Program-made: the position numbers and the translations under genes | DNA from: Atherinomorus stipes | Taxonomy: Eukaryota; Chordata; Actinopteri; Atheriniformes; Atherinidae | NCBI GenBank assembly: GCA_023101725.1 | Contig: JALJCO010010480.1 | Span: 62,001-126,000, forward strand | Reading direction: 5' to 3' | DNA: 64,000 bases | Shown: positions 15,178 to 42,677 of the stretch, in pieces | How the letters are laid out: each line of letters opens with the position of its first letter | How positions within the stretch are numbered: position 1 is the stretch's first letter | The notes under the pieces: generated by a model | What the model was told of the DNA's origin: nothing | Seen by the model: only the letters and a program-made list of their open reading frames with translations | The model's database searches: none

Positions 15178-15321
15178 CACATCTTACTTCCGGTATTTGG
15201 CAGCGGAGTGATATCAACTGCCGTTAAGTGTGCGAAGGAATTTGATTTACAGTATCGGCTACTGTAAATCAAATTCCATCGTACACGTAGGTCACTGAGT
15301 ATCCCAGTCAATTTGAAAAAA
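15178..15321. other. Junction between satellite and P2X7C gene A
   Basis: About 144 bp separate the last satellite unit from the first ATG of the P2X7C gene. The sequence is unique within the window. It contains the 18-bp hairpin described separately and is probably the promoter or 5' UTR of that gene. No Kolobok-type terminus matching the one at 29386 is present here, so the left end of element A is either outside the window, beyond the array, or lost. Confidence 0.6.
15237..15277. repeat. Perfect 18-bp inverted repeat (hairpin)
   Basis: GGAATTTGATTTACAGTA (15237-15254), loop TCGGC, then its exact reverse complement (15260-15277). It lies 45 bp upstream of the ATG at 15322. It could be a structured 5' UTR, a sub-terminal transposon palindrome or a protein-binding site; sequence alone does not decide. 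Confidence 0.9.
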
Positions 15322-16259
15322 ATGGCTACTACTGACAGGCATGAGGATATGTCGGATTTTGAAGACGATTTAGAATTTGTTTCAAACGAACCATCAGCAT
15401 ATTGTTATGAACCGGAATATACTGACGCAGAACTAAGAGAGATGGATGCTCAAAGGAAAGCAAGAGAAAGAGCGTCTGTAGCAACGCTCCCCACTAGAGG
15501 TGCGGTGGACGACCAGGACAGGAGATCCGGAGACTGGTGGTGCCAATGCAAAAAATGTATAAACATGCCAACAGAGGATGAATGTTTTTGCTGCGGGGAG
15601 TGGGACTTAGTTATTTCACAAATTGAAGAACTACAGCTCAGTACCAATAAAGATCCAACTGTGTCTGGGCACAGCGCCTCCAGAGCCAGATGTGTCTGCA
15701 TAACGGAGCATAGGACTTCCAGCCGCTTCTAAGCCGTGGAGTGCTCAGAAAAATTTTTTTTTAGAAGAAAAAAACAGGAGGAAGAAAGAGAAAGGCGGAG
15801 GAACGGACGGGGTGTGAAGGAAGTGGAGGAAGAAAAAAAAAAAAAAATTAGTGCGGGTGGTTATAAGAGGGTGGTTGCTCCCCAACCCACAAATAGAAAA
15901 ATCTGTGTGTAAGAGTCTCAGCATATTTTTGTTTACTTTACAATGTAAAATTGCATAATCAACTTTGATCATATTAATGATTTCTAGAAATCATACTCTG
16001 CTTTTTTCATTTTACTCCAACTCTTTGGGCAACTGTTTTAACAAAGTGTGACAAATAAATATGCTTGGTTGATTTATTCATTGTCTGCTTTAGGTTAGGC
16101 TAATACTACTCACCTTGTACGACCAAAAGCCTCCACAGCAGGGGTCTGCAACTTTTGCAATCCAAATAACTAATTTTGCCATCAACTCTATTAAATGAAA
16201 TCAATTATAGCTGTAGATGTCACAGCATCTTTTTCCAGATAAGAAATCCTACACACATT

Positions 16260-16297
<38 letters not shown>

Positions 16298-16920
16298 TTT
16301 TTAAATACAAATTCTTGCTTTGGCTTCTGTAGAATATACTGTAGTTATTTGTGAAAGTTATTTTAAAAAATTGCCAAGCTAATGACAAGAAAAAATAGAT
16401 CTAAAACAATAACTGATACTTTTAGTGTTATTGCACTACAGAAATTCAATCCAAATATTGCATGAAAAAAGCTAAACACAACATTTGTGTCTTTATCTTT
16501 ATTTTAGAAACATTAGTTGGTTATTTACCATTTGAAACTAGTCATTGAGAGCCACTGAAGGTCCAAATATCCACTGCTAAACCTACAATCCAGCAAATCA
16601 GATTACCACCTGTCTAAACAGCAGCTATCATCCTTATGTGGGCCATCACCAAAGTGGTCTTTGTATTAAAAAAACAAAACAAAATAAGTTACCTACTCTA
16701 TTTCTAAAGTCTAACTTGTGTTCCATTTTGTTTTAGGCAGTACCGACTGGTGGCTTACAGAATTGTTCTGGAGTGGGGACTGAAGGGAATGCAGCTGGGA
16801 AGAGGCAACCGACATGTTCTTCCATCATGTGTAGTGACCTGCATCCGTAACAAATATCCTTCAGCCACTGGACGATATGTTGGTTTCAAGGAAACCCAAG
16901 ATTCTCTGAATCTGTTCTGA
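15322..16920 (+). CDS. P2X7 C-terminal (ballast) domain protein, copy A, two visible exons, one frameshift
   Basis: Homologous to the cysteine-rich C-terminal domain of P2X7 receptors, which also occurs alone in many fish and invertebrate proteins and is thought to bind zinc. Exon 1 starts at ATG 15322: an acidic leader, an AYCYEPEYTDAELREMD-like motif, then WCQCKKCINMPTEDECFCC and CVCITEH. At about 15711 one base appears to be missing: the next family residues (DFQPLLSRGVLR) continue in another frame, and the original frame stops at 15732. The last exon is 16737-16920 (acceptor TTTTAG), encoding YRLVAYRIVLEWG, LPSCVVTCIRNKYP and GFK, then TGA. The roughly 1-kb gap contains A-rich sequence and an (AT)n run; the middle of the domain is poorly resolved. 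AATAAA lies at 17105. No transmembrane segment is seen, so this is not an ion channel. It converges on the transposase gene at 19098-28923. The family call is firm; whether the protein is functional is uncertain because of the frameshift. Confidence 0.75.
16262..16294. repeat. (AT)n microsatellite
   Basis: Uninterrupted TA/AT dinucleotide run inside the intron of P2X7C gene A. Confidence 0.95.
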
Positions 16921-17104
16921 ACATAACACCACTTTAACTACTACACCATATTTGTTGCTGATCCATATCGCTTCAACAACCAATGTCTTTTCACTAAGAA
17001 CACACATTTGTTTTCACTTTGTTTTTATTTTACTGCTTAACATAAACAAAATTCTGAAAAAACAAGAGATGTCAACAGTGTTCACAGGTTTACAGAAACA
17101 TTTC

Positions 17105-17110
17105 AATAAA
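17105..17110 (+). terminator. Candidate polyadenylation signal AATAAA for P2X7C gene A
   Basis: AATAAA 185 bp after the TGA at 16918-16920, followed by A-rich sequence and immediately by the large palindrome. Confidence 0.55.
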
Positions 17111-17415
17111 GAAAATAGAGAAAAAAATATACTTTATAATCCCAATTGGGGTGCCAATTAGGAAATTCATTCTCTGCATTTTAACCATCTCAGGTTGAAC
17201 CTGAGAGCAGTGGGCTGCTATTTAAAGGCATATGCCACCCCTGGGTTAAATTTCGCCTCCCCCTCAGCCCCTGAATTGAACAAGTGGGCAGAAACGTTTT
17301 CTACCCCAACCCAGTCATTCTCTGAATCTGGCAGCACTGACTTTAGCTTAGCTTAGCATAGTTGCTGTAATCTGGTGTTGCCAACTAGCACCACTTGACA
17401 AAAGTGAACTAATTA

Positions 17416-17698
17416 ACTCGAAATTTTTTCCAATTTTGTTTAGTGACCTGCATTCTGATCGAGTACAAACGAGAAGCCGATTTCTCATTTAGTACAGGCC
17501 AATCACAGGGAAGCGCTGCCTGCATGTGCTGCCTTTGCTACTATCCACGGTGCTTCCTTGTGATTGGCCTGTACTTCCGTGTCAGATAGTTATCCTATTG
17601 AATGCCACCCAGTCAGTCCTTTGATGTGAAATCGGCTTCTCATTTGTACTCTATCAGAATCTGCGGGTCATGAAATGTAATTGAGAAAAATTTCGAGT
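17416..17698. repeat. Inner foldback nested in the left arm of the palindrome
   Basis: ACTCGAAATTTTTTCC at the left pairs with a near-complement ending GAAAAATTTCGAGT. The inner arms share CATTCTGATCGAGTAC-like, GAGAAGCCGATTTC and AGGCCAATCACA blocks. This smaller palindrome must predate the outer duplication because it occurs in both arms. Confidence 0.85.
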
Positions 17699-18305
17699 TT
17701 GTAAGCCTGCTGCACACAAGAGCTTTCTGCTGAGCTAAAAGTCTCTTGAGGCCGTTTGCTCAGCAGATCGTCACCGTGTGCACCTGGTTTTTGGTGAGTT
17801 TTCTGCCTCACGAGGCCTTGAAGTGAAAATCAAACACGTTTGATATTTTTGCCTTGCGGGCGAAAAACTCTCTCCGTGTTAACTCAACTAGGCTGTCTGC
17901 TGAGGCAAGAAGATCTCACGACCAATCAAAACACGTCCACACATCCTTTGCATAATATAGGATGAATTAGTGGAAATACGGCCAGACTCTACCTGCTTAT
18001 ATGATGTTTCGTCGGACTTCAAAAACATCCATCATCTCTGTATAAGTGTTTATTCTATAAGTGTTGTATAAGACGTGTTTTGATTGGTCGTGAGATCTTC
18101 TGCCCTCAGCAGACAGCTCAAGTTGAGCACCTGGAGAGTTTTTCTGCCGCAAGGCAAAAATATCAAACGTGTTTGATTTTCCCTTCAAGGCCTCGTGGAG
18201 GCAGAAAAGCTCACCAAAACCAGGTGCACACGGTGACGATCTGCTGAGCAAACGGCCTCAAGAGACTTTTAGCTCAGCAGAAAGCTTCTTGTGTGCAGGA
18301 GCAAT

Positions 18306-18592
18306 AAACTCGAAATTTTTTCCATTCCATTTCATGACCCGCAGATTCTGATAGATTACAAATGAGAAGCCGATTTCCATCAAAGGACTGACTGGGTGGC
18401 ATTCAATAGGATAACTATCTGACACCGAAGTACAGGCCAATCACAAGGAAGCACTGTGGATAGTAGCAAAGGCAGCACATGCAGGCAGTGCTTCCCTGAG
18501 ATTGGCCTGTACCAAATGAGAAATCGGCTTCTCGATTGTGCTCGATCAGAATGTGCAGGTCACGAAATGTAATTGGAAAAAAATTTCGAGTA
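18306..18592. repeat. Inner foldback nested in the right arm of the palindrome
   Basis: Counterpart of the 17416-17698 inner foldback in inverted position, with the same CTCGAAATTTTTTCC ends and the same GAGAAGCCGATTTC and AGGCCAATCACA blocks. Confidence 0.85.
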
Positions 18593-19097
18593 AATAGTTC
18601 ACTTTTGTCAAGTGGTGCTAGTTGGTAACACCAGATTACAGCAACTATGCTAAGCTAAGCTAAAGTCAGTGCTGCCAGATTCAGAGAATGACTGGGTCGG
18701 GTAGAAAAACGCTTCTGCCCACTTGTTCAATTCAGGGGACTGCGGGGGGAGGCGAAATTTAACCCAGGGGTGGCAAATGCCTTTAAATAGCTGGCCACTG
18801 CTCTCAGGTTCAACCTGAGATGGTTAAAATGCAGAGAATGAAATTCTAATTGGCACCCCAATTGGGATTATAAAGTATATTTTTTTCTTATTACCATTAA
18901 AGCGCCCAGGGAGCAGATGGTGGGGGCTAAGGACCTTTACTCAGGGGTCCACAGTGGTCCCCTGAGCGATAGCAATAGCTGCACTGTTCACAAATGCTTC
19001 AATAAAAATAAGTTTGGTGTTGAGTCGTTTGGCCTTTTACTAATAACTACAGAAAGTAGCACCATACAAAGCCACAGTTAACTTTACTTTCTTTTCC

Positions 19098-22000
19098 TTA
19101 TGTTTTGAATCGGGAGATGTGCTCTGAAATACTTTGGTTTTTGTCTGGTCTTGGAGTGCTAGCTATGTTACTGGGTAATGTAGCTGGCTGCTGAAGATAA
19201 AACTCCGGATCTGCAAACTTCACAGTAACATCTTTGCGTCTTTCCAGGACTCGCTCCACCAAATCCATCCTGAATGTCTGGGTGGTTGGCTCGTACCTCT
19301 TCCTGGTCACCCACCTTTTACTTTGCTTGGGAAAGACCAAATTATAGCTCGGCATGCCTGAGGGGGCAAATTTTAAAAATGCACAGAAATGTAAACAAAG
19401 GAAGGACTACCAGGTGAATTTCCAGTACACTTGTTACAGAATTAGAGATAGATTGCTTACTATTTTACAGTGATATATTATGAATAGACCTACCACCTCT
19501 GGTCATTGCTTGCTGTCGTCCGACATTCTCGTTGTGGTCCATCACAGAGAGTAGGGTGCGGGCCTTCATAGAGTTGTAGGAGAAGTGGAGCCTCTTCTGA
19601 GTGTACTTTAGCATTGCACTATGGTACACTTCCAGGTCTCCTACCGTTTACATTTGTGGTTAATACACGTTATCTTAACTGTTGATATTTCAAAAACTTA
19701 ACAGTATTTCTTCAGTCATTGAATTACAAACGGCTACATAGTAGAAACTCTCAGTGGTAGAAGTCTATATCTAAAGCATATGTAAGCTTATTTTGAGCAG
19801 GGCATTAGAAAGAATTCTTTTTTTGAGTGGCATATCCAATAGTAATGTCCTGATCCAGATTTTTTTTGTATCCGGTCCGATATTTTAAAGGGACTAGAGG
19901 CAAGGATTGCGAAAGAATAAACAAGCATGTCCAGTTTTGTAATACTAATGGGTGATGAAGTGCTGAAACCCAAAAAGAACAAGCCCACCCACGTCTCTCT
20001 CCGTTGCCTTAAACAGGCTGTGTGCTGCAAAAAAGCACTGCAGTTTGGTGGCTGAATTTCCGCGCTGTCCTGCAGATGTGATGTCAAATGACGCTGCATT
20101 CACATTCCCGACAGCTTTAATACAGGAAGAAGACGCTCGCGGTAAATTCAAACACTGCAAGGGATAATTATGGATTCTTCTGCCGTCAGCAAACGATCCA
20201 GATCAACTAAAACACAATAAAAAGTGGAACTAGGAAGAAAAAAACTTTAACAGCGTAGTAAACAACGTTATAGCTTCAGTTTGTGCTCCCATGACCGCTT
20301 CGTGGTGGCTGCAGTTACCCGCAGTGCCAGTCGCGCCAGTCACAAGTCTCATTTCTTTATGTTGCCTCTAGTCCCTTTAAATTATTTATTTTGCAGATAC
20401 AGATCCGATACCTATATTTTCACAGTAATAAAATATAACAAGCATTGCTTAAAAGTTTTAATTTGAATCTTAACTTTCAATTTGTTTAAAACAACAGTAA
20501 TAACGAAATAGATCAAACATTTCCATAAATAACCCACTCTCATACAGAAGTGCTGGTGCTGAACTTCCCACCGCAATTACAGTTAACTGCAACTGTTCTT
20601 TCCATCTGTTCATCCCTTTTACACAGAAGCTTTGTTTCAATGCAGGGAATGTGAACCAATTAATGATAATAAATCTAAATTCTGATTTAAAGAGACTTGA
20701 GGCAAGATTAAGAAACGAAACTCGCGACTGCCGCGACTGGTGCTTCAGGTAACTGCAGCCACGAGCCAAGCCGTCATGGGAGCGTGCACAAACTGAAGCT
20801 ATAATGTTGTTTACTCACCTTTTTCTCCGTAGTTACACTTTTTAGTGGTCCTTCAGTTGATCTGGATCGTTTTCTGACGGCAGAAGAATCCATAACAATC
20901 GCGCACAGTGTTTGAATTTACCGCGACCGGCTTCGTCCTATATCAAAACAGCGGATGGAGCGTCATGTGACGTCACGTCCGCATGGCAGAGCTGGAAAAC
21001 TATAATGTTGTTTACGAAGTTTTTTCTTCGTAGTTATACTTTTTAGTGGTCTTTCATTTGATCTAGATCGTACTCTGACGGCAGAATAATCCATAACTAT
21101 CGCTTACAGTGTTTTTATTTAACGTGACCGTCTTTTTTCTGCATCAAAACTGCGGATGTAGGTCATTTGACGTCACGTCCGCAGGAAATTCGGACACCGA
21201 ATTGCAGCGCATTTTGCAGCACACAGCCTGTTCAAGGCAACGGAGAGAAACATGGGTGGAAACGTTATTTTTGGTATTTAGCGCTTCATCACCCATTAGT
21301 ATGAAAAAAAGGGACATTCATGTTTGGTTTTTTTCAAATTCCTGCCTCAAGTCCCTTTAATTAATATCAAAGCAGTTTTGTCTTCGTGAGTAGCAGATGA
21401 AGTGTAAAATGTTCCTGACTTTTCCTCCAGTTCAAATCTATATTGATAATATCTTTGTGCTAATTCTTTATTGTGTTTACATTAGATACATTTTCACCAA
21501 ACTAAGTGCTGTTTACCCTATTATGACTTGTATTTGTGATGTTTTTTTTTTTTTTTATCATCAAATCAAAACTTACTTGATAAAGTGCTTTTCAAACAAA
21601 GTTGTAGCTCAAAGAGCTTTAGAGTTGAAATCATAATCATTATTACATTGTCGAATTTCCCTTCTGGGATAATGACATGCCTTTTAGTTTTGTTTCTTTA
21701 GCTGCTGCACAGTTGAATATTAATCAGGATGAAAAAGTATTTATTTACCTATGTTTCGTTTCATTATCGCTGCAATAACTGTAAAAGTCATTATATGGCC
21801 TTTATTCAGCTTCTCTGTGTAAATATCAGGTTTTCTATTTGATGATTTTTTATTATTTCATTATTTCAGCTGAACTTGTGGGGAGGAAAGCTACAGGTGG
21901 ATGAGAATTTGTAAAACAACACGTGAAATAGCGCCACTTGCTGGAGCCAGTCAGGAGCGATGATGCAACGAGCACACATTTACATGATAAAGCCCGACTT

Positions 22001-25000
22001 AGAGACGCGGAGCAGAGCTGCAGGGGGAAATCCAGTACGAGAAAATTTGTACTTTGGGGATTTGATTTGTAACCTGACTCCCGCCACCTGGTATTTGCAA
22101 TACCATCTGGGGAGGGAGTTAACCCGATGTCATTTCAAATTAGTCTTTTTTTTTCTAAAACTCTTGCATGTGATTGGATAGAAGATCTGTCCGTCATCTT
22201 GACTGACACGCTACTTCAGCCACTCACGTTGAACCGAATGACGCAACCCGTGACGCAACTCAGAGCGACACCAGAGCCACCACGCATAGAGGATCGAGTT
22301 ATCAAAACATGTTATCAAGCTCAAAAAGCTTCAGTCAAACAACATGGCGGCGGCGGCGACAGCTAGTACGAGCGGTGTACAGTCTGTGAACGACTTTTTG
22401 TCGAATGTGCAAAGAAAACACTGAAATAACTGACTGACTACACTGCTGTCGCCTGTGCTTCTACATCACATCCGGCCAAAACGCCGCCCATCCTTCAAAA
22501 GTCCCACCCGCGATTAGTGATTGGCTCCTACTATTCTCTAACCAGACGAAATCACCTATAACTGTCGCCTTACTCAGATGGAGTGCGTGAGGAAAGGGAA
22601 CGCCCCAGCGTGTACTTGTTGAACGCACCCAGATGATGTAAATCAGGTTATTTGATTTGTACTTCACGTAACTAAACACGATCCTACCAGATACTGTGAA
22701 AATAGCAGTATCAGCTTGGGACATCCCTTATATCCAAGTTGTGTGAAGATTTATCAAATGGTAGCATTAGACATACCCGTATGTTTGAAGAGGGTCATGT
22801 GGTTTAAGTCTTTCAAAAGGTTTTTGTCCAGCACATGGTCTGAGAGTGCCTTGAATGCAGGAGAGTCCTTTTGTAGCCATCTCTTTCTCATCTGCTGCTC
22901 TTCAGTGAGGTCCTGGTGGTAGCAAGTCCTTTCTTGCCCATCTTCCTCCCACCGATGGATGCCACAGATGTGGTGGAGAATTGATGTCCAGCGGTGTTTC
23001 AACTCCTGGCAAAGTATATGAATTTCAGAAACAAACACTTTTTTTTTTTTTTAAGTGCTTTTAGCCTAATACAGAAACCAAGAAAAATGTCACTTGCCTC
23101 TGGATCACCACCGCATGTCTGGCAAGACCACCACAGGTGATTGGCAATGGACTTGAGCCAAGGCTGCAGATCCATGTTTTTTTTGTTGTTTGCAGCTGCA
23201 GTCAACTTCTTCTTTAGTCCTAAAAGTACAAATTATTGCTAAAAATATCATTTTCAGCCTGCATTTTGCTTCAAAATAACATATATAATACCATAGCTGT
23301 CAATTCTCCCATTTTGGAAACTACAATATTTTAACCCTCTTTCCCACTGACTTCCCATATTGTCCCAGAAATTTCTCGTATTTAGTTCAAGTAATATATC
23401 AATAATAATTATACTGTAATTGTAGATCAGCTACATATAACCATAAGGTAGTAACAAGAGTATGCCAGTAGATGGCACTATTGCATCATAAACCAGGCAA
23501 AATCTAATGTGCTGTTTGTCCTTCAGAGACACTATAGTAGGCATTGACAGATACATTGGCCAGCCTACATTTTAGGCCGATATTTGCGTTTTTGGCTGGT
23601 ATCGGCATCGGCCGATACAATGGGTGCATTGGCCGATACGCGTCCCTCGGCATAATTTACAGACAGGCATCAATACAGGCAGCAGTTGCTGGAGACGCTG
23701 CATCGTGTCCTTCATCATATTGAGTGAAACGTGCCGCCTGAGTTTACTACACAATCAACTAAAATGAATTTTACGAGGGTAAAAGGCTCAAATGTGTTCA
23801 AAATCGTTTTCATTATCCATCAGCTTATGGATCATGAGTCTCGGACTTAGCGCTGCGGTGAAGTAAAGCGCACTGCAAACAGAAAATAAGAAATCTGTAT
23901 TTAGGTACAGTAACCTGTTTACTGTATTTTACGATAGATAGAAAGATAGATAGATAGGTAGATAAAGAGATAGATTTAGAGCTAGAGAGATAGAGATATA
24001 GAAAAAGATATAGAGACATAGACATAGAGATATATATATAGGGAGAGATAGATATAGAGATAAAGATATAGATAAAGAGAAATAAATATATAGAGAGATA
24101 TAGGGATATAGATATACAGAGATATAGAGAAACAGATACAGAGATATAGAGAGTGATAGAAAGATAGATATAGAGAGATAGAAAGTTAGATATAGAGATA
24201 TACACCGCCATCTGCTGGATTAGATGAAAACTACCGAAAAAATTATGATGAGCCCTTGGTTCTCTCTGACAAGCTCCTCCAGGGATTAAAACAGCTCCCC
24301 CGATTAAGACCCTTAATTAACGTGGAAACACGTGAATGGCAGCCAGTGAGTTAATTATGTGTAATTTCAAGATTAAATAACATCTAAAGGGATGAGTTAA
24401 AAGAAGAAATTCACCCCCCTCACAGTTGATATGAAGGTAAACTTGACCTATAAAACCTAAAATGATTTTTTGAACCAGGCTGTAAACATGTTTATTTCTG
24501 CTGTAAACATGTTTATTTCTGCTGTGCAGTTGGTCTTTTTACATTGAAGTCTGAGGTAGAGATGTTCCAATCAGGGTTTTTTGCCCCCAATTCCGAGTAC
24601 GAGTCATTTGATTTTGAGGATCGGCCGATACCGAGTCCCGATCCGATACTTCTATAATAAAATGAAAATTTAAGAGAAAAAGACAGTGTTTCCCCTACAG
24701 CAGTGGTCTGTAGGGGAAACACTGCTGCCTAATCTGATTCTGAATCCTATCAGCTCGAAGGTGCAATTGGGGAATCAGGAGGTGCCATATTTGTTGTATT
24801 TTTTCGTTTTATTTATTCTTATTTTACTTTATTATGACACCTCCTCTAATCAATTACATTCTTTCAGCCATATTCTAAAAAAGAAAACATATTTATTATA
24901 CATTTATATACCAAACTAACGTTAAATTAATGAGTAAGTAATCATTTATGCATGTCTGTGGAAATCACAAAGGAAGCTGATTATGATGATTATTTTTGGA

Positions 25001-28000
25001 CAGCAAATAAAACCAACACTAGATTTCAAATAAACTCTGAAACAACAGATAGGCCTAATGTAATGTGTGCTTCGGTTTTACTCCGTTCATTAATGGCAAA
25101 CAAAGTTTAAGCAGCTTTCTTTTCTTTTTTCTGTCACTTCTCCGCGGGTCACGTCAACCAGCAGCCCCGTCAAACCCGCAGCGATGCACGCGCTGCACAA
25201 CTAACGTTAAACCAGCACATTGTCGCGTTGCTTCGCTAAATATGAACCACATGTTACACGTTATGTTGACTTATTGTTGTTTGCTTTGATTAATGGATCA
25301 AATCTTTTAAAAGCGGCTCATCAGTTCAGCTGCAGCCGCCTTCCCTGTAGTTATGTCTGAGTGAACAGGCTGCTGCCTGCTGGTGCGTTACATTTAAACT
25401 CCTGCACCGTCCGGTGATGCTGTAAACAGCTCTGAGCTGCGTGCAGGACGGGGCGGTTCACATGAGGCAGAATCAAACCAACCGCTGGTCATAAAACCGA
25501 AACTGAGAGGAAACCACGCAGAGGAAAAAGAGGAGCAGCCCGCTGCTGCCGTATCAGTAAAGGAAACACTTAACCGATCCCTGATCGGGAAGTAACAGCC
25601 GATTCCGATCGAGTCTGAAATCACGTGATCGGGCCCCGATCCCCGATCAGGTGATAGGATCGGGACATCTCTAGTCTGAGGATTTGCTCTGTTTTTGATG
25701 CTCTAGTGGATGAAGGGAGAATTACAATTATTTAACTCAACTTCAGGATCTCACACTTTTCCAGTGGAGTTTGCCCATTGGAATATACACACACTCAAGA
25801 AGTTATGGTGTATGTATTGCAAGAAAACGTGATTAAAATAAAATGTGTTTAATTTACAGACAAGCAGCTTAATGTGAAATAAACAGTAACTATGTCAATA
25901 AGCTGAAAATGTAAAATAGATAGGTGTGCTTCATATAACTTTGTCTATTTTATTTATGCTGTAATATAATGTAGGAATGTCAACAGCATCTCTGTCAACA
26001 AAGATCGATGATCAGAATCTGATCGGGCTGATTGTAGTTGACAAGTTTTTTCTATATTTCTTGTAGACAACACTTGTCTTGCAATGTAAGGAAGCTGAAC
26101 TTTGGTTGAGTTGGTAGAATGGCTTGCGGTGCGTGAAATTTTCCTTATTTTGAAATCCAAAACTTGAGAGGTATTAGAATACTGATGTTCATACCAGGCA
26201 AATTTTATTTCAGTTTGCAGATTTTCGAGATGCAGTGACACCTGAAGTTGGCCAGCAAGATGTAGTTTAGTTGTAAGCAGAAATTGAATGACTATGGAGT
26301 GGGAAACTTTTTAACAGAATCTGACTGCATGTAGTAAAAAGCTTACCTTTCACAACATGCCACGGATCAAATTGATGCTGGATGTTAGAGTAGGTCTCTC
26401 TCATAAGCTTCCTGATGGAAGGGCACCTGTCGGTAGCAACAACACCCACTTGAACTCCTGCCTGAAGCAAACGGTCCAGGGCCCTTCGAAACCCCAATGT
26501 TTCCATGGCTGATGAGCTGGTCGCCTCTGTAACCTTTGTTATGACAATTAGTGTACAGTATGAAGAGTTATTCAATTCTTCAGTCCCTCAATTGCTTCTC
26601 CTCTCAACACACAAAACTACAATGAGAGTATAATTATTATACATATATTGATGTATTACCTGAACTAAATCCACCATGATGATTTCCTTTGATTCATCAC
26701 TCATAAAACTGTATGTAGTGTACTTTGCACTAAATCCAGGGGAATCTGAACGCCCATCACCGCAAACTGAAATCCCTCCATCAACTGTCTGTAGTTGTAG
26801 TTTTGCCATTATATCTTTTTGGTGGTCACGGTATGCATACTCAATCACTGGTATGAGGTAGGTGGATTGCAAGGAGTAAAATGTTGTCTTTGTTGGAATT
26901 TGAAGATTCAGTAGTTCAGCCCAATCAAAGATTTCGGTGTAAGTTGAACCCGTGAACAGAATAGATGAGGCAACCAACAGGTTATTTTCTGGCATTCCAC
27001 GCAGCAGAGGACATGACTCCCATTCTCCCGAGTGTCCCCTCAAACAGCTCCACTTGATCTGTATACGAGTCCCAGCAGTAGACACCTTCTTGTCTTCCTC
27101 TTCAATGACAATTCCACACTGGTGACATGTTGTAAAGAGCTGCATTAGCATGGACTCGTTGACTAGCCATTTTTTTTCTGACCAGCTCTTGGTTTCTGCC
27201 GTAGAGGGCAAGTCTGTGGAGGGGCTGCTTGAAATGTCTGAGATGCTGCTTGGTGGAATAAAGTTGCTGTCAAGTCCCTGACTTAATGGGGCTTCATCTG
27301 AGCTCATACTCTGATCCAGTGGGTTGTCATCTTCAGCTACTGTGTTCTCATCCTGTATGAAAAACATAAAACAAATAAATATGCAAGCAAATCTAGCAAT
27401 AATATGTTAAACAACCGATGTCCACTGCCAGTGAGCCTAAGAGCAGAGGTCATGTTAAATGTAACTGTGAACTTGAATTTGTTGACACTGTATGGTTCTT
27501 AAACATGTAGCTCTTTATCAGTTTAATAAAAATTGTTTAAATCTATGTTCAGAAGTAACACATTACAACCATTTATTTTCAGGTCAATCTCTTATTTGTG
27601 CTGGTGGCAGCAGCATTTGCTGCACCATAGGAGACCTTTACAAAATATTATAGACATTAGGATAGTAATAAATCAATGCAAATCTATACATCACACAATT
27701 ACCTCATTTCGCTCCAGTTTATGTGTGAGGGGACGGTAGGCAAAATAGAACCCAGATGAAGAATTCTTTTTCCGTGGTTGTGAGGCTGACTGTACTGGGG
27801 TACTGATGAGTAACTTCAGTGGAACAGGAGAACCTTGGGATGACACTGTTCTAGGGGAGTCCATTTTAGGGGTGGACTGCTGTGTTATAGTGGACAATGT
27901 CTGTAATTCCTGTTCAGACAACATAAAGATATAATCAATGTATTGAAGCACACAACATGAAGTCATCATACATCACACAGTCAACTTAACTTTGTTTATA

Positions 28001-28923
28001 AAGACCTCTAAAACTACAGCTGTAAACAAAGTGCTGTACACATCAGGTAGTCAAGTCTGAGGTTTGATACCAATTAACCCATTTATAAATCACCATCTTA
28101 AAGTTAATTGACGGATGCATCCATGATGGCCATCTGTAGGCCTTACAGTATATTACAGTATATCATTCTCTACTGCCAATACAAATAATGATAATAAACT
28201 TGTAATCTGGGGGAATTGGCATGAGCACGTGAGAGTTTTTAATAAAGTACTTTTCATGTAAAAAGCAACACAAAGTGCTTTACATACGCACACACACGCA
28301 CACATGTGAGTATGTATGTGTGTGTAAATAAATAAAACAATCCATGCACAATAAAACACACGCCTTAGCACAACTAATTCCTCCGTGCTTATCACACAGC
28401 ACGTTACCAGTACATGAAAGCACACTAGTTAGTTTCCAACCGTATTTGATTTTTCTGTCAGCAAGCAATCACCTAATGTTGGCGCTTAGCCCAGCCAGGT
28501 AAATACGGACAGTATAATTATAGTGTTAGCCAGCACTGTCACTCTCAAAAAATAAATAGAAAATGTGGACCACTCAAGGAGATTTATCAGCAGGCAGAAA
28601 GGGCTAGCTTTTAGCTATACAAGTATCATTACCTGTCCCTCTGTAGCTGCTGGTAAGTCTTGAAAGACGGATGGCACTGCATTCTTTCTCAGCATCCTGG
28701 ACTCTTTTTGCTTGTAGGTTTTGACGAAGTCCTCATGGCTGAAATGATCACTACATATTCTCAAGTTTTGTATAGTCTCCGCCGGAGTGTTGATGTCCAA
28801 GCCAGCAAGAAGTAGCCATAGTTTCATCCTCTCTTTATCGTTCTCTGGAAATTTGTGGAAACTTTGCTGTGCCCATTTACGGTATCTGTTTCTACAGTTT
28901 TTAAACGAACACTTATAAACCAT
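19098..28923 (-). CDS. THAP-domain Kolobok-type transposase, copy A, eight exons, apparently intact (711 aa)
   Basis: Exons (high to low): 28923-28633, 27909-27703, 27352-26660, 26533-26347, 23219-23098, 23005-22777, 19640-19494, 19357-19098 (stop). Phases agree at every junction, giving 711 codons. Exon 1 is a complete THAP zinc finger: C5, C10, C57, H60, with P26, W36, F61 and AVP at 82-84; it binds DNA in this family. Exon 3 carries an acidic/Ser-rich linker and then VCGDGRSDSPG (D365) and AKYTTYSF. Exon 4 has VVATDRCPSIRK (D432) and QHQFDPWHVVK. Exons 5-7 have NHLWWSCQTCGG, LLKDLNHMTLFKHTG and DLEVYHS (E580, candidate third acid). Exon 8 has YNLVFPKQSKRW. The exon 5 donor is a GC site (AG/GCAAGT); all others are GT. 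Introns hold a hAT element, two TTAA MITEs and microsatellites. A TTAA-flanked terminus lies 463 bp upstream at 29386. It could be an active transposase or a domesticated gene. Confidence 0.88.
19889..20376. mobile_element. TTAA-flanked MITE, copy 1 (488 bp)
   Basis: Flanked by TTAA at 19885-19888 and 20377-20380. Ends are AGGGACTAGAGGCAA and its exact reverse complement (15 bp). Non-coding. TTAA duplication fits Kolobok or piggyBac superfamilies. It lies in the intron between transposase exons 7 and 6. Confidence 0.85.
20691..21356. mobile_element. TTAA-flanked MITE, copy 2 (666 bp)
   Basis: Flanked by TTAA at 20687-20690 and 21357-21360. Ends AGAGACTTGAGGCA and, inverted, AGGGACTTGAGGCA. 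It shares internal blocks with copy 1 in opposite orientation (GCAGCACACAGCCTGTT against AACAGGCTGTGTGCTGC; the TTCTGCCGTCAG block). Non-coding; same intron as copy 1. Confidence 0.82.
21638..21676 (+). mobile_element. Short LINE 3'-end fragment
   Basis: CATTGTCGAATTTCCCTTC and TGGGATAAT resemble the 3' tail of the LINE whose reverse-strand copy ends near 45225 (TTGTCGAATTTTCCTCCTGG read on the other strand). Only about 35 bp is recognisable. Confidence 0.45.
21677..22776. other. Intron sequence with a GC-rich promoter-like patch
   Basis: Part of the intron between transposase exons 7 and 6. At 22344-22424 a 26-codon frame begins ATGGCGGCGGCGGCG in a CpG-rich setting and ends at TGA. It resembles a stranded first exon or 5' UTR carried by an inserted element. 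I cannot assign it, and nothing else here is recognisable. Confidence 0.3.
23041..23053. repeat. Poly(T)/poly(A) run
   Basis: T tract on + at 23041-23052, in the intron between transposase exons 6 and 5. Confidence 0.8.
23220..23930. other. Intron sequence, hAT-like debris
   Basis: Most of the stretch is unremarkable. Around 23540-23640 there are repeated GGCCGATA and CGGCATCGGCCGATAC blocks, typical of degraded hAT-type terminal regions, but no paired ends or target duplication could be placed. Confidence 0.35.
23931..24205. repeat. GATA-rich compound microsatellite
   Basis: Long imperfect run of GATA, AGATA and TATAGAGA units on +. The reverse-strand open frame here is simple Ile/Ser/Tyr/Leu repeat and is not a gene. 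Confidence 0.95.
24557..25673. mobile_element. Non-autonomous hAT element (1117 bp) with perfect 8-bp TSD
   Basis: The target duplication GTCTGAGG lies at 24549-24556 and 25674-25681. Ends are TAGAGATGTTCC and GGACATCTCTA with GATCGG/CCGATC-rich sub-termini. Eight-bp duplications and TAG...CTA ends fit hAT. No transposase frame is recognisable. It sits in the intron between transposase exons 5 and 4. Confidence 0.9.
24684..24724. repeat. 17-bp perfect hairpin CAGTGTTTCCCCTACAG inside the hAT element
   Basis: CAGTGTTTCCCCTACAG, a 7-base loop, then its exact reverse complement. CAGTGTTTCCC is a common hAT end, so this may be two abutting element ends with nearly everything between them lost. 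Confidence 0.8.
25674..26346. other. Intron sequence between transposase exons 5 and 4
   Basis: AT-rich non-coding sequence after the hAT insertion. I see no other element or gene. Confidence 0.5.
28287..28327. repeat. (CA)n/(TG)n microsatellite
   Basis: ACACACACGCACACATG followed by TATGTGTGTG, in the first intron of transposase copy A. Confidence 0.85.
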
Positions 28924-29360
28924 GTTGACTGACTGTACAGTTCTCTAAACTAACGAGCGAAAAAATGTGCGAAGACTGTGACGCGCTTCTGTTTGTTTTG
29001 ACATAACGGTTTTAACCGCATCGCTCTCCTGTCTTACCACCCAGAAGCAATGTATCATTCCGCTGCTGCTGATAAACTAGTTCCTCAAAATGTATGGGTA
29101 ATTTGTGATGCAAGGTAAGTTTTAATTGTAATATTATTTGGTTAACACGGCATTTGCACAGATAGTCTTGTGTTATAGCTGATTTGCCTCTGGTGTTCTG
29201 TGGAGGGGATAAAATCGTCATTGATGACAGGCTAGCAGATTCCTATTGACTTACGCTAGCATTAGCATTGGGGACCACCGGTAACAAAAATATGAGATGA
29301 AATAAGATGAAACTGTCTCCAGTGATTGTTAGTACCCTGGCTTAATTGAAAATGAGGCCC

Positions 29361-29390
29361 TATGTCAAAAATCCTGAACTTCCCCTTTAA
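29361..29390 (-). mobile_element. Terminal inverted-repeat end of Kolobok element A, with TTAA
   Basis: Read on the reverse strand, TTAA (29387-29390) is followed by AGGGGAAGTTCAGG and TTTTTGACATAGGG. It lies 463 bp 5' of the THAP start codon, where a transposon end is expected. The end resembles the TTAA-AGGGATAGTTCAGG end at 39868. No partner was found near the satellite/P2X7C junction. Confidence 0.7.
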
Positions 29391-29518
29391 GCCCCACCCA
29401 GTTCCACTCAAACCACACCCACTTCAGGTTTAAGCCCCGGCCCATCCCCAACTCTTCAAGGAGAGAAGTCACTATTGGCTGGTCCGAAGTCCACTGCTGC
29501 GTTTATATGTGTTTTTAG
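29391..29518. other. Short flank between element A and hAT MITE
   Basis: CCCCACCC/CCACACCC-rich sequence; nothing recognised. It ends with the left hAT target copy GTTTTTAG (29511-29518). Confidence 0.4.
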
Positions 29519-29960
29519 TAGTGATGGGCGATATCGACTAAAAAATGTATCACGATAATTTCTATTATTTATCACGGTAATGATAAGTGACGATAAAAAA
29601 AAAACTACTAGCAAAATATTTTGTATTATAAATGCCTGTCACTAAATTCTGTATTGAAAGCCCTAAAAAACACTAGAAGCCACTAAACTATATCAATTAA
29701 GTTCAAGGAGTGCACCTGTATTGCAAAACTGTAGTGAAACCATTCAAACAAGTCTGAAATATGAGAGACCAAATTCCACATTTATCTAAACGATGCAAAC
29801 GGCAACACTAACTTGGCTTATTAAAAAAACCAAAGTAGTGAAACTGCAAACACAAACTGATAAATTGTCATCTCACGATAAAAACGATAAATTCAAATTG
29901 TTATTGTGGGGAATTTCTTTGACGATATATCGCACACGATAAAATATCGCCCCATCCCTA
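29519..29960. mobile_element. hAT MITE (442 bp)
   Basis: TAGTGATGGGCGATATCG at the left and CGATAAAATATCGCC-CCATCCCTA at the right, flanked by GTTTTTAG and GTTTTTAA (7 of 8 match). Rich in CGATA motifs; non-coding. Confidence 0.85.
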
Positions 29961-31277
29961 GTTTTTAATGCATATTTGCACAGGTAGAGTTTCCACCATA
30001 TGTAAATCTGGAGTGTGATAGAAAAGCAACAACATTTTCAAATAAATCATGTCGGTTCCGTTCTGGATATTGATTAGCATCAGATATGATGATGAGTTTA
30101 TCTCCTTGAACTGTCCTTCAAACTCATGGTGCAACTTTAACATCCAAACTTAACAGACTTTCTCAGCAACTTCTGAATGTGAACATATCAAAGGCAGTAA
30201 ACACTTAACTCAAATTTATAGGAGAACAATCATAAGAGGGTCATTTCTGTTGAATTTGCTTTTCCCATGAGCCTTTGTGGTGCTGATATGTTGTGTTTTG
30301 AAAGTAGCCCCCGCCCCCTTTGTTGTTAATGCATGCTGAGCTAAAACAACAACATAATAAATAGTTTGAGTGAAAGTAAAAACATGTTTCGGATTAGAGA
30401 GAGGAGTTTTTAAGTTGATTTGACTAAAATAATAATAATAATAATCCCCAAACCAAAATAATTAAGTTAGATCAATGTAAAGAATTCTTTAATATCAACT
30501 ACAGCACAGATGCTCTTTTTAGTGTAAATACATGAAATTACCAAAAAACATTTTTCTTTTGCTAAGAAGAAATTTTTATCAGGAAATGATATGAAAATGT
30601 ATTTTAACATTCTTTCTTATGTGAAATGAAATGGCATCTTCTTTAAAAAAAAAAGGAAACTTCATGTCTTTTTACAGTTACAGACTTTTCATGTTATTAC
30701 ATGAGACTTGTGAATTCACAGCCTATTTCCATAATTTTATCATTATTTTCCGGATTTTTGAAAAATGGGGAAAAAATGTTAAATATCACTGAAAAAAATC
30801 TGTGATATCAGATTTTTTTAACAGTGTATATTTTGATTCTGATTATAAAGGGCACATCACAAGATGCTCAACGACGAATGCGTCACAGTGAAGATCAACC
30901 AGAGGCTCGACCATTGATCACTCCCCAGTCATTTCAGTTGGAGTCCAAACCTCCCGGAGTTCTGTGCTGACCAGTTTCCACACAGCTGTCTGCTGCTGCA
31001 CCTTTGAGATTACATCATTTGTGGAGTAAAGGTATGTTTAGTTAACCAAATAAGAAGAATTATTTCTATTTGAATGAATATGACTTGATTATATCTTGTT
31101 TGTCAAGGTGTTAAACACTGATAGTATGGGGGATAATAGTGGTACTGGTATGATGAGAATCGCATTAAATTAATTTAAAAGGATATAAGATGTTGACTAT
31201 CTGTTTACATAATGTATCCATCAATGTTTGCTTTATTTTAATTTTCACTAAATACAACTGTTTTTTGTATTATCTTT
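29961..31277. other. AT-rich non-coding region upstream of transposase B
   Basis: No THAP-type exon was found on + here, so the N-terminus of copy B is missing or unrecognisable. A possible donor (TAAAG/GTATGTTT) lies at about 31031. No TTAA end matching the one at 37336 could be placed, so the left boundary of element B is undefined. Confidence 0.45.
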
Positions 31278-33217
31278 GTGTTCAACATCCTTTTTTTCAC
31301 AAGCCAGACCTGCTACTTTGAATTATACAGAAACACAAAAGAAGGGTTTTATTTTACATCAACTCCAGTCAAGCCTACAACATCTGGTCAAAGACCCTCA
31401 AAGAGACCACGTCTGGAAGAGGAAGAAGAGGAGGAGGAGGATGTGGAAGACATGGACATTTCTGATGCATTTCTCCCACATGACTCCACATATGAGCCAG
31501 GGAGACTCTACAGCAGCCTCAACAACAGCAACATCCTTCCCAGAGGAATCTGAAGTGAGGTAAGTTGTGGTTTTCAAAATCAGTTTCTTTTTTGTGTGCA
31601 ATTTAAAATTCTAAAATGCTAATTATCTGTTTCACATTGCAAAGTGAGCCTTCAGCCCTGGAAGAAGATAAATATATTGTTTTTTGAGAGTTGTCTAAAG
31701 GAGCTCTTTGATACTTGCCCAGTGTGCAAGCACCGCTGTAAAGTCATCAAAACAAAATGTGGCACTTTTGTTGCTTTCCAGCAAAACTGCCCACACTGTC
31801 AGTACAGCCGGAAGTGGCAGAGCGGATCTGTGATTGGCAGCACGCCAGTTGGAAACCTTCAATTTTCTGCTGCTGTTTACTTTTCGGGGGCTTCCTTTGC
31901 AAAAGTCACAAAGGTAATTAACTAAATTTAATCATATGATCTAAATTACAGATACACAACACTGAGTAAATTATGCAGGTATGCAATGCAATGAACCTGA
32001 GAATCCACAAGTATAACACCTTCAGGAGGCATTCCCGCTGTTACCCAGAGCCAGCAATCTTTCACAAATGGATCGGGGATCAAACGTGCTTTTTGAGGAG
32101 TTGAAGGAAAGAGGGGGAAGGTTGCTGTCAGCGGCGATATGAGAGTGGATTCCCCAGGTAACAAAACACCACCACTGTTATCAGATAGTGTACAAAAGGC
32201 ACTTGCATTGGATGCATCATAACATAATATGTTAAATATGTTACACATCATAACTGTTGAGCTTGCATCTTACATCTACTCATCTTTATTTAGGGCACAG
32301 CGCAAAATATGGGAGTTACACTTTGATGGATGTCCACAGTGAAAAAATTCTGGACATTAAACTTGTACAGGTATGGGTTCACCTCTTTGCATGATTTATT
32401 TTGGCATTGGCAACAGATATACATAACTACATTTAAGATTAATCTTTTTGGGTAGAGTAATGAGGTTGGTGGAAGTTACCACATGGAGAAGGAGGGACTG
32501 CGCAGAAACCTGGACTTTCTAGAGGCCAAAAGTCTGGAGGTGGACTGCATTGTGACTGACCGCCATCCTCAAATTAAAAAGTATCTTCAGGATCAAGACT
32601 ACCCAGTACTACGACGTTTGGCGTGTTGTAAAAGGTTATATCTTGCATTTATGTTTGAGTGTGTGTCTGTCTATAGAAGTTATATTTACACCTTGTATAT
32701 GTGGTTTGAAATGAGGTTTTTTTAGGAGCTGTTTATCATAATTTGCCTCTGTCATTTTACAGGTTTATCCAAAAACTTGGATGCCTTGGCTAAAAACAAG
32801 GATTGTCAGCCGTTACAGAAGTGGTCAGCAGCCAAAAAAACCACATGTACTGGACTGCATCCTCTTCAAAATCAGGACCTGAGAAGGTAGCCAAGTGGAC
32901 ATCATTACACAACCACATACAAGACGTCCACACTCAGGATGACCCACTGTACCCAAAATGCCTCCACCCAGATAAGACATCAAGAGATCCAAATAAGTGG
33001 TTTCGATCTGGGGCCTGTACGACCAAGCCGGATTTTCTCTTATCGAGGAAATTTCAGGGTTTTTCGTTCTATGACGCTGGTTCACTTCTGATCGGGTTCT
33101 ATCTCCCCGGTAACTTATGCTGAACGCCTAACCTGGTCTGGACCAGGTTAAGTTCTGGATAAGAGATCACAGAGTATAAAAGCACCACCCCCCCCGACCA
33201 ATCAGCACTCTTGGAAA

Positions 33218-33450
33218 ATGGCCTGCCCATTTTTAGAAGATTCTGTCGACACTGGTGCAGATTGTGAGAGGGTTTTAGAAGAGAAAGAATATTCAGAGAT
33301 GGTGCAACCCTTTTTGATCTGCCAGATGACATTTTATATGAAAGATGTCGGTTTTCCTCTGCTGGACTCCGTTACATCTGTCAGCTGTTAGAAATGCAGC
33401 CGCACTGACTGCACCACAGATGCTCTGCATCACCCTGAGGTTTTATTAAT
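33218..33450 (+). pseudogene. N-terminal remnant of HARBI1-like Harbinger transposase
   Basis: ATG at 33218 opens MACPFLEDSVDTGADCERVL, the usual N-terminus of fish Harbinger transposases. After frame changes the family motifs YERCRFSSAGLRYICQLL and ALTAPQMLCITLRFY can be read up to about 33450. The catalytic core is absent. This identifies the surrounding element as a deletion derivative of an autonomous copy. Confidence 0.75.
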
Positions 33451-33588
33451 GTTACACTAATTAAATTAATTTTGATAAACCAACGCCTCACCTCGAGTGA
33501 AAAAAAAATTAGTGCTGTAGCCTACTGATGTAGCTAAATAGCATAATTTTTGTAGCCAAATTATGCTCACGGTCCCACTCAGTAAAAC

Positions 33589-33616
33589 GTCATTCATTCA
33601 TTCATTCATTCATTCA
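33589..33616. repeat. (ATTC)n microsatellite
   Basis: Tandem CATT/ATTC units inside the Harbinger element. Confidence 0.9.
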
Positions 33617-34412
33617 CTGGTAGTTTGATGCACACCGTTGGCGACGCTGAAAACGTATGCAAAAACATGTCTTTGTAATAAGTGTGGTGACCCAGAATCT
33701 CATCACTGACCAGTTTGGATTATATATTTTTGGATTTGTTCTTTACTTGTTCCGATCGTCTTACGCCGCTGGGGTTGCATCTGAAATAATGTGATTAAAA
33801 GGTCACACATGCAGAAAACATGGATTTATGGAGCGCACACCCACCCATGCTGTCATGGTGAAGTGTTACAACACGTGCACGATATGAGCCTGAAAATATC
33901 TACATGCACAGTATGAGAAGCAAATACACTGAGGAAGCGCTGTAGTGTGATGAACACTCAATGATCAGAGTCCGATATTGTTCCATGATTGTACAATCGC
34001 ACGGACTTGCTGCGCATTAACAGCCAGCAGTCATTCCTGGCTTTTGCTGCGGCGACTGTGTTGCCGCAGCATAAATGGAGCCATTTATTATCATTCCTGA
34101 ATCATAATGTCGTGTTATCATTCAGGAATGATGATCCTGAATTCTTCATATTTGTTAAGTATCATCATCTGCTCCTCCATGGTGAAATATGTCGCTCTCT
34201 GTTTCTCCATGTCTGCGTCTGGTCAGACGCTTCAAACGCCGCCTTTTTTATGTGAGCGCGCACTGATTAAGATTGGAAAACCCTGGGTTGAGTTACCGAG
34301 TTGATAACCAGCTTCATAGTACCGTTTATCAAGACCGCGGATGTCTGGTTAAGTCAACCCAGGTAACTGAAGAAATCCCGGGCATGTTAATCCGGCTTCG
34401 TCGTACAGGCCC

Positions 34413-35046
34413 CTGGTGAGTAATAATTTTCTCCATTTGTTTACACCAAGCTCACCATCGAAGATATTTAGAAAAATGAAAGCATTCCAGTTAATAAATT
34501 ATCTCAATGGTCACGCATACTATTAGTTAATAATGTGTTTAACCTGTTATCAGACAGTTTGTTATGATCCTAAGTGACATGTTTCGGGGTTATTCCGTCT
34601 TCATCAGAGCTGATGTAAACGGAAAATCCACGGAAACATGTCAGTCAGGATCATAACAAAACCATTTGTATTCAGTATGTTATTGAAATACTGTTGCTGT
34701 TTTTGTTTTGTTTTTTGTGATTATTAGATTAAGTCAAGCTTTCCATGGTGCACTCCAGTTTAAAAAGGATCAAAGTTGCCAACACACTTTTAGTTCATGT
34801 CTTTTTCATTATTATTACATCAAGCCAAGATTTAGGTCATCCAAATATTACCTAAAAAAAAAAGAAAAAGAAAAAAGAAATTTGGCTTGACATAAAAGCA
34901 TGTACTGGAAGTGTGCCAGCAATTTAGATGTTTTATTTTCCATTTTATAAAATGAACATTTCCGCAGAGCTCTTAAAGGTGTCATAACCTGCTGTTTTAC
35001 ATACACAATCCTTCTTAAATTATCTTCAAATGAATTTTTAATTATA
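34413..35046. other. Intron-like sequence of transposase B with an imperfect inverted repeat
   Basis: At 34556-34664 TTTGTTATGATCCTAAGTGA and ACATGTTTC pair with GAAACATGT and TCAGTCAGGATCATAACAAA. The repeat has the look of element ends but no target duplication is clear. The C-terminal core exon expected here (equivalent to copy A exon 7) was not recognised. Confidence 0.4.
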
Positions 35047-35556
35047 GTTGGGTGGACGAAAATTGAATGAGCTCATTTTAACCTCTTTTTATCCCCAACT
35101 TTTGTTTGTCGCGAGAACACGTACGAGAGTTAGAGCTGTCTGTAAGCGCGTTCACGGGAAGTTCAAGGGAAGCTTTCATATAAAGTCTCTTATCCAAAGT
35201 ACAAAAACGGCCAAGGCACTGCAAAAGTAGTGAAAACCAAACCCACATTTGGTAAGCAACGTGAATCATATGCTAAATAAACACACTAAAAACACGTGAC
35301 ACATTTTTATAAATTAAAAAGATGTTTTTATTTAGAACAAAATGGCAAAATATATATTTTTGTAATTACACAACTGTACACTTTGTGCTGTTGGGATATG
35401 TTGCAGCACTGATGTGCGTCGTCTTCAGTGAGGTCTTCCCTGATCCCTCATTGTTTGTGGCAGAGCTGAAGACTGTCGTCGTGCCAGAGGACCTCGTTGC
35501 ACAGTACGAGAGGGCACCAGCAGCAGATGTCACTCATGCTGCCCATGTGTCAAGGT

Positions 35557-37049
35557 TTAGTCGAGCGGAGGCCGAACCTGGGGAGGTGCAACAGCAGGAA
35601 GACAGCCGATGTGCTGTCCCCCAGGATCAGGAAACTCCCGGCGGATCGTCGGCACCGCACATGCAGGAATGACCACCCTCACTCGGGCTCCAAGTAGTCC
35701 CCAGCACCAGCTCACAAAGCTTCTGTGCGCCAGGAAACGTGTGCGCCTGCAAAAGAAGATGGACTTCTTCAGCAGTGATTTCAAATAATGATGACTCTTT
35801 CCTGTATATAATAAAGAAAAAATATTTTGTGTTCTTCTAGGTAGTGGTCCATAGTCTGCACGATAAATGTTGTTTATATTTTGAAGGACGTAAGCATTCA
35901 GACAATCAACCTCAAACCCAGGATGGGCAGTGATACTATTAGGTGGTAGTGTTTCTTGATTTATTCGCTTCATAACCTGAAAAGAAAAGAAATTGTAGTA
36001 AATGTAACAAAGTTATTAATCTAATTCTTTAATTGATTAACAAACATTTCCAAAACCTTTGACCTGAAAAGTAAATCAAAGAGTAATGTATTGTCATGGT
36101 AAACTTTGTAAATAATGATCATGACAATAACGTGTCAAAGAAGATTTGCACATGCAAATTAGGTTAGGACGTCACATTCCTGCTGTGGGAAGTGCACAAA
36201 AAGGTAGTACATGGCAGCACATAATTAATCATAGGGCCTTTTGCTGCATTATCTAATGACGTTTGATCATTTGCACGCAAGTAGTGCAAGAAAGATGTTT
36301 ATTTTATGGTCTGAGCGATGCACATTCAAAAATCAACCCTGCACAAAGAAAATTAAGTTGCTAATTTTTAAGCACTTTGTTCACGACCTGAACGTGACCA
36401 AATAGTCGTAATATTACAGTTCACAAGGCCAATGGTCAGGACCATTCCACTGTAATCATTGTCACCAGTTAGAAGATTTTTTTTCCACTGTCATAACATT
36501 GGAATACTTTGTGACAGGCACAGTTCGAGGGAAAGTATTTTCCTCCAAAGGTTTCCTTCAACACTTATCATAACGTGGCTACTATGAAATTGTTCTAATT
36601 CTGATGACATACTAGCCTATATGAACATTTGTAATATAAAATATATAATATAAAACGTTTACCACAACTTAAGATTTTTCTTAGATGGTCTATGGTAACA
36701 ACGTATTATTTTCGCCAGTCACCGGATTGGTTAATTTTACAATACGTTTACAACATAGAAGTCAAAGTATTATTGCAACTCCAGAGCTACCTGTGTTATT
36801 TCTCCGCAGCACAGGTTTTCCTCCTCGATGGGCATCGTCTCGCAATTTCCACACGAACACCTACAAATGCAATAAACATTAGCCTATAACAACGAAATTC
36901 TGCTACAGATGCAATGGAGAAAATACAAGCAGTTTAGTTTCTTTCCTGTCAGAAACGTCTTGTAACGTTCTTCTAGGTCTCGCCGGCATTTCGTGTACTT
37001 CAACCTCCGGGTCGAGAACGTAAGGCTCCAAAGTCAGTCGCTCCGCCAT
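35557..37049 (-). CDS. P2X7 C-terminal (ballast) domain protein, copy B
   Basis: Candidate start ATG at 37049 gives MAERLTLEPYVLDPEVEVHE, the usual EPY leader; the donor of this exon is unclear. Exon 36860-36791 (acceptor TTTGTAG, donor CAG/GTAGCT) encodes CSCGNCETMPIEEENLCCGE and ITQ. The last exon 35976-35557 (acceptor CTTTTCAG) encodes SITAHPGFEVDCLNAYVLQ, NIYRADYGPL, then FLAHRSFVSWCWGLLGARVR and IPACAVPTIRREFPD. The cysteine pairs and TAHPGF, SWCWG and CAV..IRR..FPD motifs are those of the P2X7C domain. Between PLPRR and RTRFLAH about 30 residues look like a retained intron ending CTTTTGCAG without a GT donor, but the frame stays open. There are no transmembrane segments. The 3' end overlaps the C-terminal region and AATAAA (35810) of transposase B on the opposite strand. 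Confidence 0.75.
35810..35815 (+). terminator. Candidate polyadenylation signal for transposase B
   Basis: AATAAA in the + direction, lying inside the last exon of the opposite-strand P2X7C gene B. The two transcription units would overlap at their 3' ends. Confidence 0.45.
35977..36790. other. Intron of P2X7C gene B
   Basis: AT-rich sequence bounded by CAG/GTAGCT on the 5' side and TTTTCAG on the 3' side, reading the reverse strand. No further gene or element is recognised. Confidence 0.55.
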
Positions 37050-37067
37050 GTTTTCCTACAGTATTCA

Positions 37068-37088
37068 TGCCCCCACCCCCCACCCCCT
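37068..37088 (-). promoter_or_regulatory. G-rich tract (possible G-quadruplex) upstream of P2X7C gene B
   Basis: On the reverse strand GGGGGTGGGGGGTGGGGG lies about 20 bases before the candidate ATG at 37049. Such a run can form a quadruplex in DNA or 5' UTR; a role is speculative. Confidence 0.4.
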
Positions 37089-37310
37089 GCTGCGTTTACA
37101 ATTTTCTTCGTGGGCATGCTGTTGTGCCCGTTCCGCGGAACGTCATAACATGCAAATATGGTAAGGGGCCTGGTATTAGTGAGCTCGAGTCGTTGGGACT
37201 TCCATGTTGAAAAGTGGGCAGATAGAATTACTAACATTACATGATCGAAAATTACTACACAGTGCCACGGGTGCTAAAATAGTATATTATTGCCTGTAGC
37301 TGACTTACAG

Positions 37311-37340
37311 GCTTGGAAAAGCATGATACAGCTCCTTTAA
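37311..37340 (-). mobile_element. TTAA-flanked end of element B
   Basis: Read on the reverse strand, TTAA (37337-37340) is followed by AGGAGCTGTATCATGC and TTTTCCAAGCC. It lies 287 bp 5' of the P2X7C gene B start, as expected for a transposon terminus. Beyond it the sequence is a broken Harbinger intron and exon, so the element landed in, or next to, that older element. Confidence 0.55.
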
Positions 37341-40572: not shown

Positions 40573-40575
40573 AAG

Positions 40576-40593
40576 TGGGGGCTCGTCCGGGGT
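40576..40593 (+). promoter_or_regulatory. Primer-binding site, tRNA-Pro type
   Basis: TGGGGGCTCGTCCGGGGT lies 3 bases after the LTR end and matches the well-known proline tRNA primer site (TGGGGGCTCGTCCGGGAT) at 16 of 18 positions. Confidence 0.85.
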
Positions 40594-41983: not shown

Positions 41984-41995
41984 TAAGGTGGGGAG
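41984..41995 (+). promoter_or_regulatory. Polypurine tract
   Basis: AAGGTGGGGAG immediately precedes the TGTTAC start of the 3' LTR. Confidence 0.7.
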
Positions 41996-42674: not shown

Positions 42675-42677
42675 ATA

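Follow-up and report, generated by a model that had tools for sequence, protein, structure and literature searches.

Two probable Kol0-type Kolobok copies with convergent transposase and KolX genes in the genome of Atherinomorus stipes

A 64-kb stretch of the Atherinomorus stipes genome (64,000 nucleotides; contig JALJCO010010480.1 of assembly GCA_023101725.1, positions 62,001 to 126,000 of the forward strand), referred to here as the window, carries two loci at which a gene for a Kolobok-type transposase lies tail to tail with a gene for the ballast domain known from the P2X7 receptor. It is established for the Kolobok superfamily that a THAP-DDE enzyme carries out cut-and-paste transposition at TTAA sites, and the question raised by these loci is whether the second gene belongs to the transposon or lies beside it by chance. 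For the Kol0 lineage of Kolobok, Kojima and Bao (2022, PMC9587614) described families that encode a transposase and a second protein, KolX, with seven cysteines, two zinc ions and the cytoplasmic ballast fold of P2X7. As judged by sequence comparison, two different Kol0-type families are very probably represented in the window, each by one old, incomplete copy; the copies, designated A and B, each carry a THAP-DDE transposase gene and a tail-to-tail KolX gene, the THAP domain being seen only in A.

The window was searched by tblastn with 80 KolX and 94 transposase homologues at a threshold of E 1e-2. KolX matches were found at 15253-15762, 16672-16944, 35455-36009 and 36773-36898, and transposase matches in six clusters within 19074-28923 on the reverse strand and three within 31476-33093 on the forward strand; no match to either protein was found elsewhere in the 64 kb. 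Pfam, tblastn and splice models agree with the initial annotation, which had been made from the letters of the window, that both gene pairs are present and convergent, with A and B in mirror order. Three of the four genes also lie where it had placed them, while the limits of transposase B were approximate, as homology begins at 31476 rather than 31278 and the last frame runs to 35672 rather than 35560.

In the splice model, transposase A extends from 28923 to 19098 on the reverse strand and comprises eight exons with 711 stop-free codons, separated by six GT-AG introns and one GC-AG intron. Exon 1 (28633-28923) encodes the THAP domain expected of a Kolobok transposase (Pfam, E 7e-17) and is followed by exon 2 (27703-27909). 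The first catalytic D region (GDGRSDSP, position 364) is in exon 3 (26660-27352), and the second D (TDR, position 431) and the DxxH motif (DPWH) are in exon 4 (26347-26533). After exon 5 (23098-23219), exon 6 (22777-23005) includes an H-H-C-H zinc-finger-like region between DxxH and E, and exon 7 (19494-19640) includes the catalytic E, the HTGDLE motif (position 575) spanning exons 6 and 7. Exons 3 to 7 are defined by homologue alignment, tblastn and the splice model, and exon 8 (19098-19357), with the stop codon at its end, by tblastn and the splice model. Transposase A thus has the DDE triad with the C/DxxH motif. The D, D, DxxH, zinc-finger and E regions are conserved in an alignment with 13 homologues, and the H, H, C and H positions, all present in transposase A, are nearly invariant among the homologues aligned. 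No C or H was seen between the two catalytic D regions when the translation was read by eye; hence there is no CCHC finger there, as expected for Kol0, such a finger downstream of the first D being the mark of KolobokP, D, E and 5 (PMC9587614). The top-scoring relative, the best of 7992 candidates scored, is a Merluccius polli protein with 77% identity over 77% of the query, and a Mutator-like Pfam domain was above the curated cut-off in three of six relatives scanned. Within the intron that separates exons 6 and 7 lies a TTAA-flanked element (19885-21360) with inverted ends AGGGAC...GTCCCT, which is non-autonomous, has Kolobok-like ends and retains both TTAA copies.

KolX A, on the forward strand, has a first exon at 15322-15732, matched by 60 of the 80 KolX homologues, and a last exon at 16738-16920 that ends with the stop codon, is matched by 72 of the 80, and includes the P2RX7_C (ballast) domain (Pfam PF20478, E 3.1e-8); by itself, the first exon gives only E 0.31 for PF20478. 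All seven cysteines are retained, yet the gene is frameshifted past the CITEH motif near 15705, as seen in an alignment to homologue P0146 that includes a frame change. The stop codons of KolX A and transposase A are 2177 bp apart; of this, 1770 bp is a 1.77-kb fold-back insertion (17119-18888) with arms 90-100% complementary in the main blocks, and the remainder is 407 bp.

In copy B, KolX extends from 37049 to 35557 on the reverse strand, its two stretches being matched by 71 and 43 of the 80 homologues. Exon 1 (36946-37049) has a non-GT donor site, and exon 2 (36791-36860), which has tblastn matches, includes a C-C-C...CC motif. The 3' part (35557-35976; PF20478, E 1.3e-6) has its last exon from 35746, with the donor of the last intron provisional. 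Six of the seven cysteines are retained. PF20478 is present in both copies, as expected of Kol0, each copy thus encoding a KolX that carries the ballast domain of P2X7; the ballast fold is likewise present. Seven cysteines are near-invariant among 50 aligned KolX proteins, and zinc binding is predicted from them. Most of the aligned proteins also have a Y-x-Y/F-E-P-E-like motif close to the N-terminus that does not belong to the ballast part; it is a candidate transposon-specific feature.

Transposase B is preserved on the forward strand as remnants at 31476-33093 (tblastn clusters 31476-32216, 32287-32388 and 32411-33093, frames read by eye), which include both catalytic D regions and the H-H-C-H region; at E 1e-3, copy B is matched within 29388-33100 on this strand by 85 of the 94 transposase A homologues. 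C-terminal remnants follow at 35164-35672, where query P0107 gave a weak tblastn match (35164-35247, E 0.089) and the last frame, read by eye, reaches a stop at 35670-35672. The gene is broken, as seen from its frame changes, DVWR at the DxxH position, an insertion at 33010-34413 with inverted ends GGGGCCTGTACGAC, and the lack of a tblastn match (E 1e-2) to the catalytic-E exon or to THAP. The KolX B stop codon, TAA at 35557-35559, sits within the opposite-strand transposase frame, which continues to 35672, and the coding frames therefore overlap. As copy B is decayed, its transposase may originally have stopped near 35560, and these 3' ends are best described as abutting or overlapping.

One TTAA-abutted end starting with AGG, of which AG is the RR start, was found in each copy. 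The right terminus of A (29346-29390, reverse strand; TTAA at 29387-29390) reads inward as AGGGGAAGTTCAGG, and that of B (37297-37340, reverse strand; TTAA at 37337-37340) as AGGAGCTGTATCATG. Both fit the description of XKol Kolobok elements, with TTAA and AGGRR termini (Hikosaka et al. 2018, PMC6004289), and each TTAA site lies one base from the position first noted (29386 and 37336). The XKol A5 terminus, AGGGGAACTATCATGA, has AGGGGAA in common with end A and TATCATG in common with end B, similarities to which no significance value is attached. No left end of A or B was found when the right ends were compared with the left flanks by BLASTN and local alignment, none of the matches being above those of shuffled queries. 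The best candidates for the partner of end A were equalled by 226 and 282 of 300 shuffles in two search ranges, and those for the partner of end B by 184 and 141 of 300. An inverted match of end A at 39862-39896 was rejected as the left end of A, which should lie left of 15322; it reads as the left end of an element to its right. Overlapping this match, a Kolobok-like end is present at 39868-39900, with TTAA and the sequence AGGGATAGTTCAGGTTTTTGGACAT; it faces right and is 83% like the end of A over 35 bases.

A single TTAA-bounded element that encloses both genes, as proposed, is not demonstrable in the window because each copy keeps only one recognisable end. Copies A and B would probably each have moved as one two-gene unit.

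Relatives of KolX A and transposase A are encoded by consecutive genes in two other fish, Mugilogobius chulae (WMY93_014378 and WMY93_014379, respectively) and Cirrhinus molitorella (QQF64_035823 and QQF64_035824). In M. polli, KolX and transposase are listed on contigs of identical size, 1,687,896. Given the consecutive genes in the two other fish, the adjacency of KolX and transposase is beyond chance, as the initial annotation had argued from the two copies. In ten comparisons among five pairs, the identities of KolX and transposase fall roughly together, from 63/72% (A and M. polli) down to 36/38% (A and B), five pairs being too few for a formal test of co-divergence.

Several observations weigh against two Kol0-type copies. 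No complete element was seen, and THAP was not found in copy B by tblastn with the 94 transposase homologues at E 1e-2. The pairing in M. polli rests solely on the identical contig size. Locus tags were present on both sides in six species, and of the 14 comparisons in these partial lists, two were consecutive and 12 were not adjacent. One of the ten identity comparisons departed from the joint trend (52/41%), and transposase B was used in them as a joined fragment. A missing transposase neighbour in the fish lists means little, because the protein search with transposase A was limited in its scoring to the 7992 candidates with the most words in common. Searches for two-gene loci in other collections gave 143 pattern matches in viral contigs with the transposase alignment, 10 in viral contigs with KolX homologue P0146, and 18 in bacterial and archaeal genome contigs with P0001, none of which was confirmed; these collections hold no fish, and the null results therefore say nothing about pairing in fish.

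Could the two genes be neighbours by accident? The ballast-domain gene nanor of zebrafish has been regarded as belonging to the host (PMC7016195), and if nanor-type host genes lay by chance beside unrelated Kolobok copies, both the 12 non-adjacent locus-tag comparisons and the lack of an end pair around both genes would be accounted for. This is very unlikely, as the convergent order is identical in two copies that are only 36% and 38% identical, the two genes are consecutive in two other fish, both KolX genes are damaged as expected of an abandoned element, and published Kol0 families encode KolX (PMC9587614). Even less probable is an inverted duplication of one ancestral two-gene locus instead of two separate insertions. 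The copies are indeed mirror images, and the right terminus of A (29387) is ~2 kb from the first transposase match of B (31476); however, A is closer to M. polli (63% for KolX and 72% for transposase) than to B (36% and 38%), and the termini of A and B differ. The TTAA at the ends found, together with a note in the literature, might also suggest a piggyBac-type element, but this is contradicted by the THAP domain and DxxH motif of the transposase, the Mutator-like domain in three of six relatives, and termini that start with AG as described for Kolobok. Moreover, piggyBac versions of KolX are said mostly to lack the cysteines (PMC9587614), which are kept here (A 7/7, B 6/7), and a piggyBac origin is hardly credible.

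The copies most resemble the Kol0 lineage, typified by Kolobok-1_XT (PMC9587614), in having a DDE transposase with a zinc finger between DxxH and E, a ballast-fold KolX, TTAA and an RR start of the visible end, and differ from it in being incomplete and decayed. The pairing of KolX with the transposase was published in 2022, and ballast-only proteins such as nanor were assigned there to KolX, zebrafish nanor being likely a domesticated KolX (PMC9587614); the novelty implied initially does not hold, and the view of the P2X7C gene as a Kolobok accessory gene is supported and agrees with the KolX of Kol0. Gene orientation was not found stated for Kol0 in the parts of that text available, whereas here two families directly show the two genes tail to tail, their ends abutting or overlapping. 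XKol of Xenopus likewise has THAP, H2CH and DDE domains with TTAA and AGGRR termini, but the terms 'KolX', 'ORF2' and 'second protein' are absent from the available text (PMC6004289). The ballast domain across animals was described by Rump et al. 2020 (PMC7016195); nanor and the P2X7 C-terminal ballast have the same cysteine domain and fold as KolX but are treated there as host genes, and 'transpos' is absent from the main text as available. Other Kolobok lineages have different partner proteins or none (PMC9587614), which does not touch the Kol0 pairing. KolobokP, KolobokD, KolobokE and KolobokH also combine a Kolobok transposase with a second protein, which in KolobokP is likewise downstream on the complementary strand, but there the partner is a nuclease or a helicase rather than KolX.

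In a Kol0-type element, the THAP domain would bind close to the ends of the element, the DDE domain would cut and then insert at TTAA, and KolX would act as an accessory factor that assembles, localises or tunes the transposase-DNA complex. KolX is regarded as an accessory protein because it is linked to the transposase and because second proteins are also found in other Kolobok lineages. The role of KolX would probably be non-catalytic, in assembly, localisation or regulation, an enzymatic role being less likely. A bolder and rather doubtful proposal is that the convergent, near-abutting order is a conserved control device, in which 3'-overlapping messages would dampen each other and limit the transposase, and KolX would license assembly of the complex by binding zinc and possibly a guanine nucleotide.

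Other features were noted in the window. A satellite array with a 387-bp unit (39.2 copies at 99% match; Tandem Repeats Finder) occupies 1-15175 and stops 146 bp ahead of the KolX A start codon; it had no Rfam match at the gathering score. A short element between the copies, at 29519-29960 (TAGTGATGGGCGATATC...ATATCGCCCCATCCCTA), is flanked by GTTTTTAG/GTTTTTAA, which is what an 8-bp duplication of hAT type would leave. Two mutually inverted copies of a palindromic element (42675-43832 and 55726-56815) are 97-99% alike in their main blocks. As read by eye, a stretch near 40225 is repeated directly near 42325 around a T-rich middle (40225-42670), resembling a small LTR element. A 309-codon open frame at 44170-45096 on the reverse strand had no Pfam match at E 0.1.

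According to Kojima and Bao (PMC9587614), P2X7 arose when a P2X4-like gene became fused to KolX. The gene pairs described here give raw-sequence support to the view, already published, that a transposon is the natural setting of the P2X7 ballast domain. If the control-device proposal were true, the P2X7 ballast would be a captured transposition regulator. Many of the short fish proteins labelled 'P2X purinoceptor 7-like' in databases are probably not receptors but KolX or relics of it, and the automatic label is therefore misleading.

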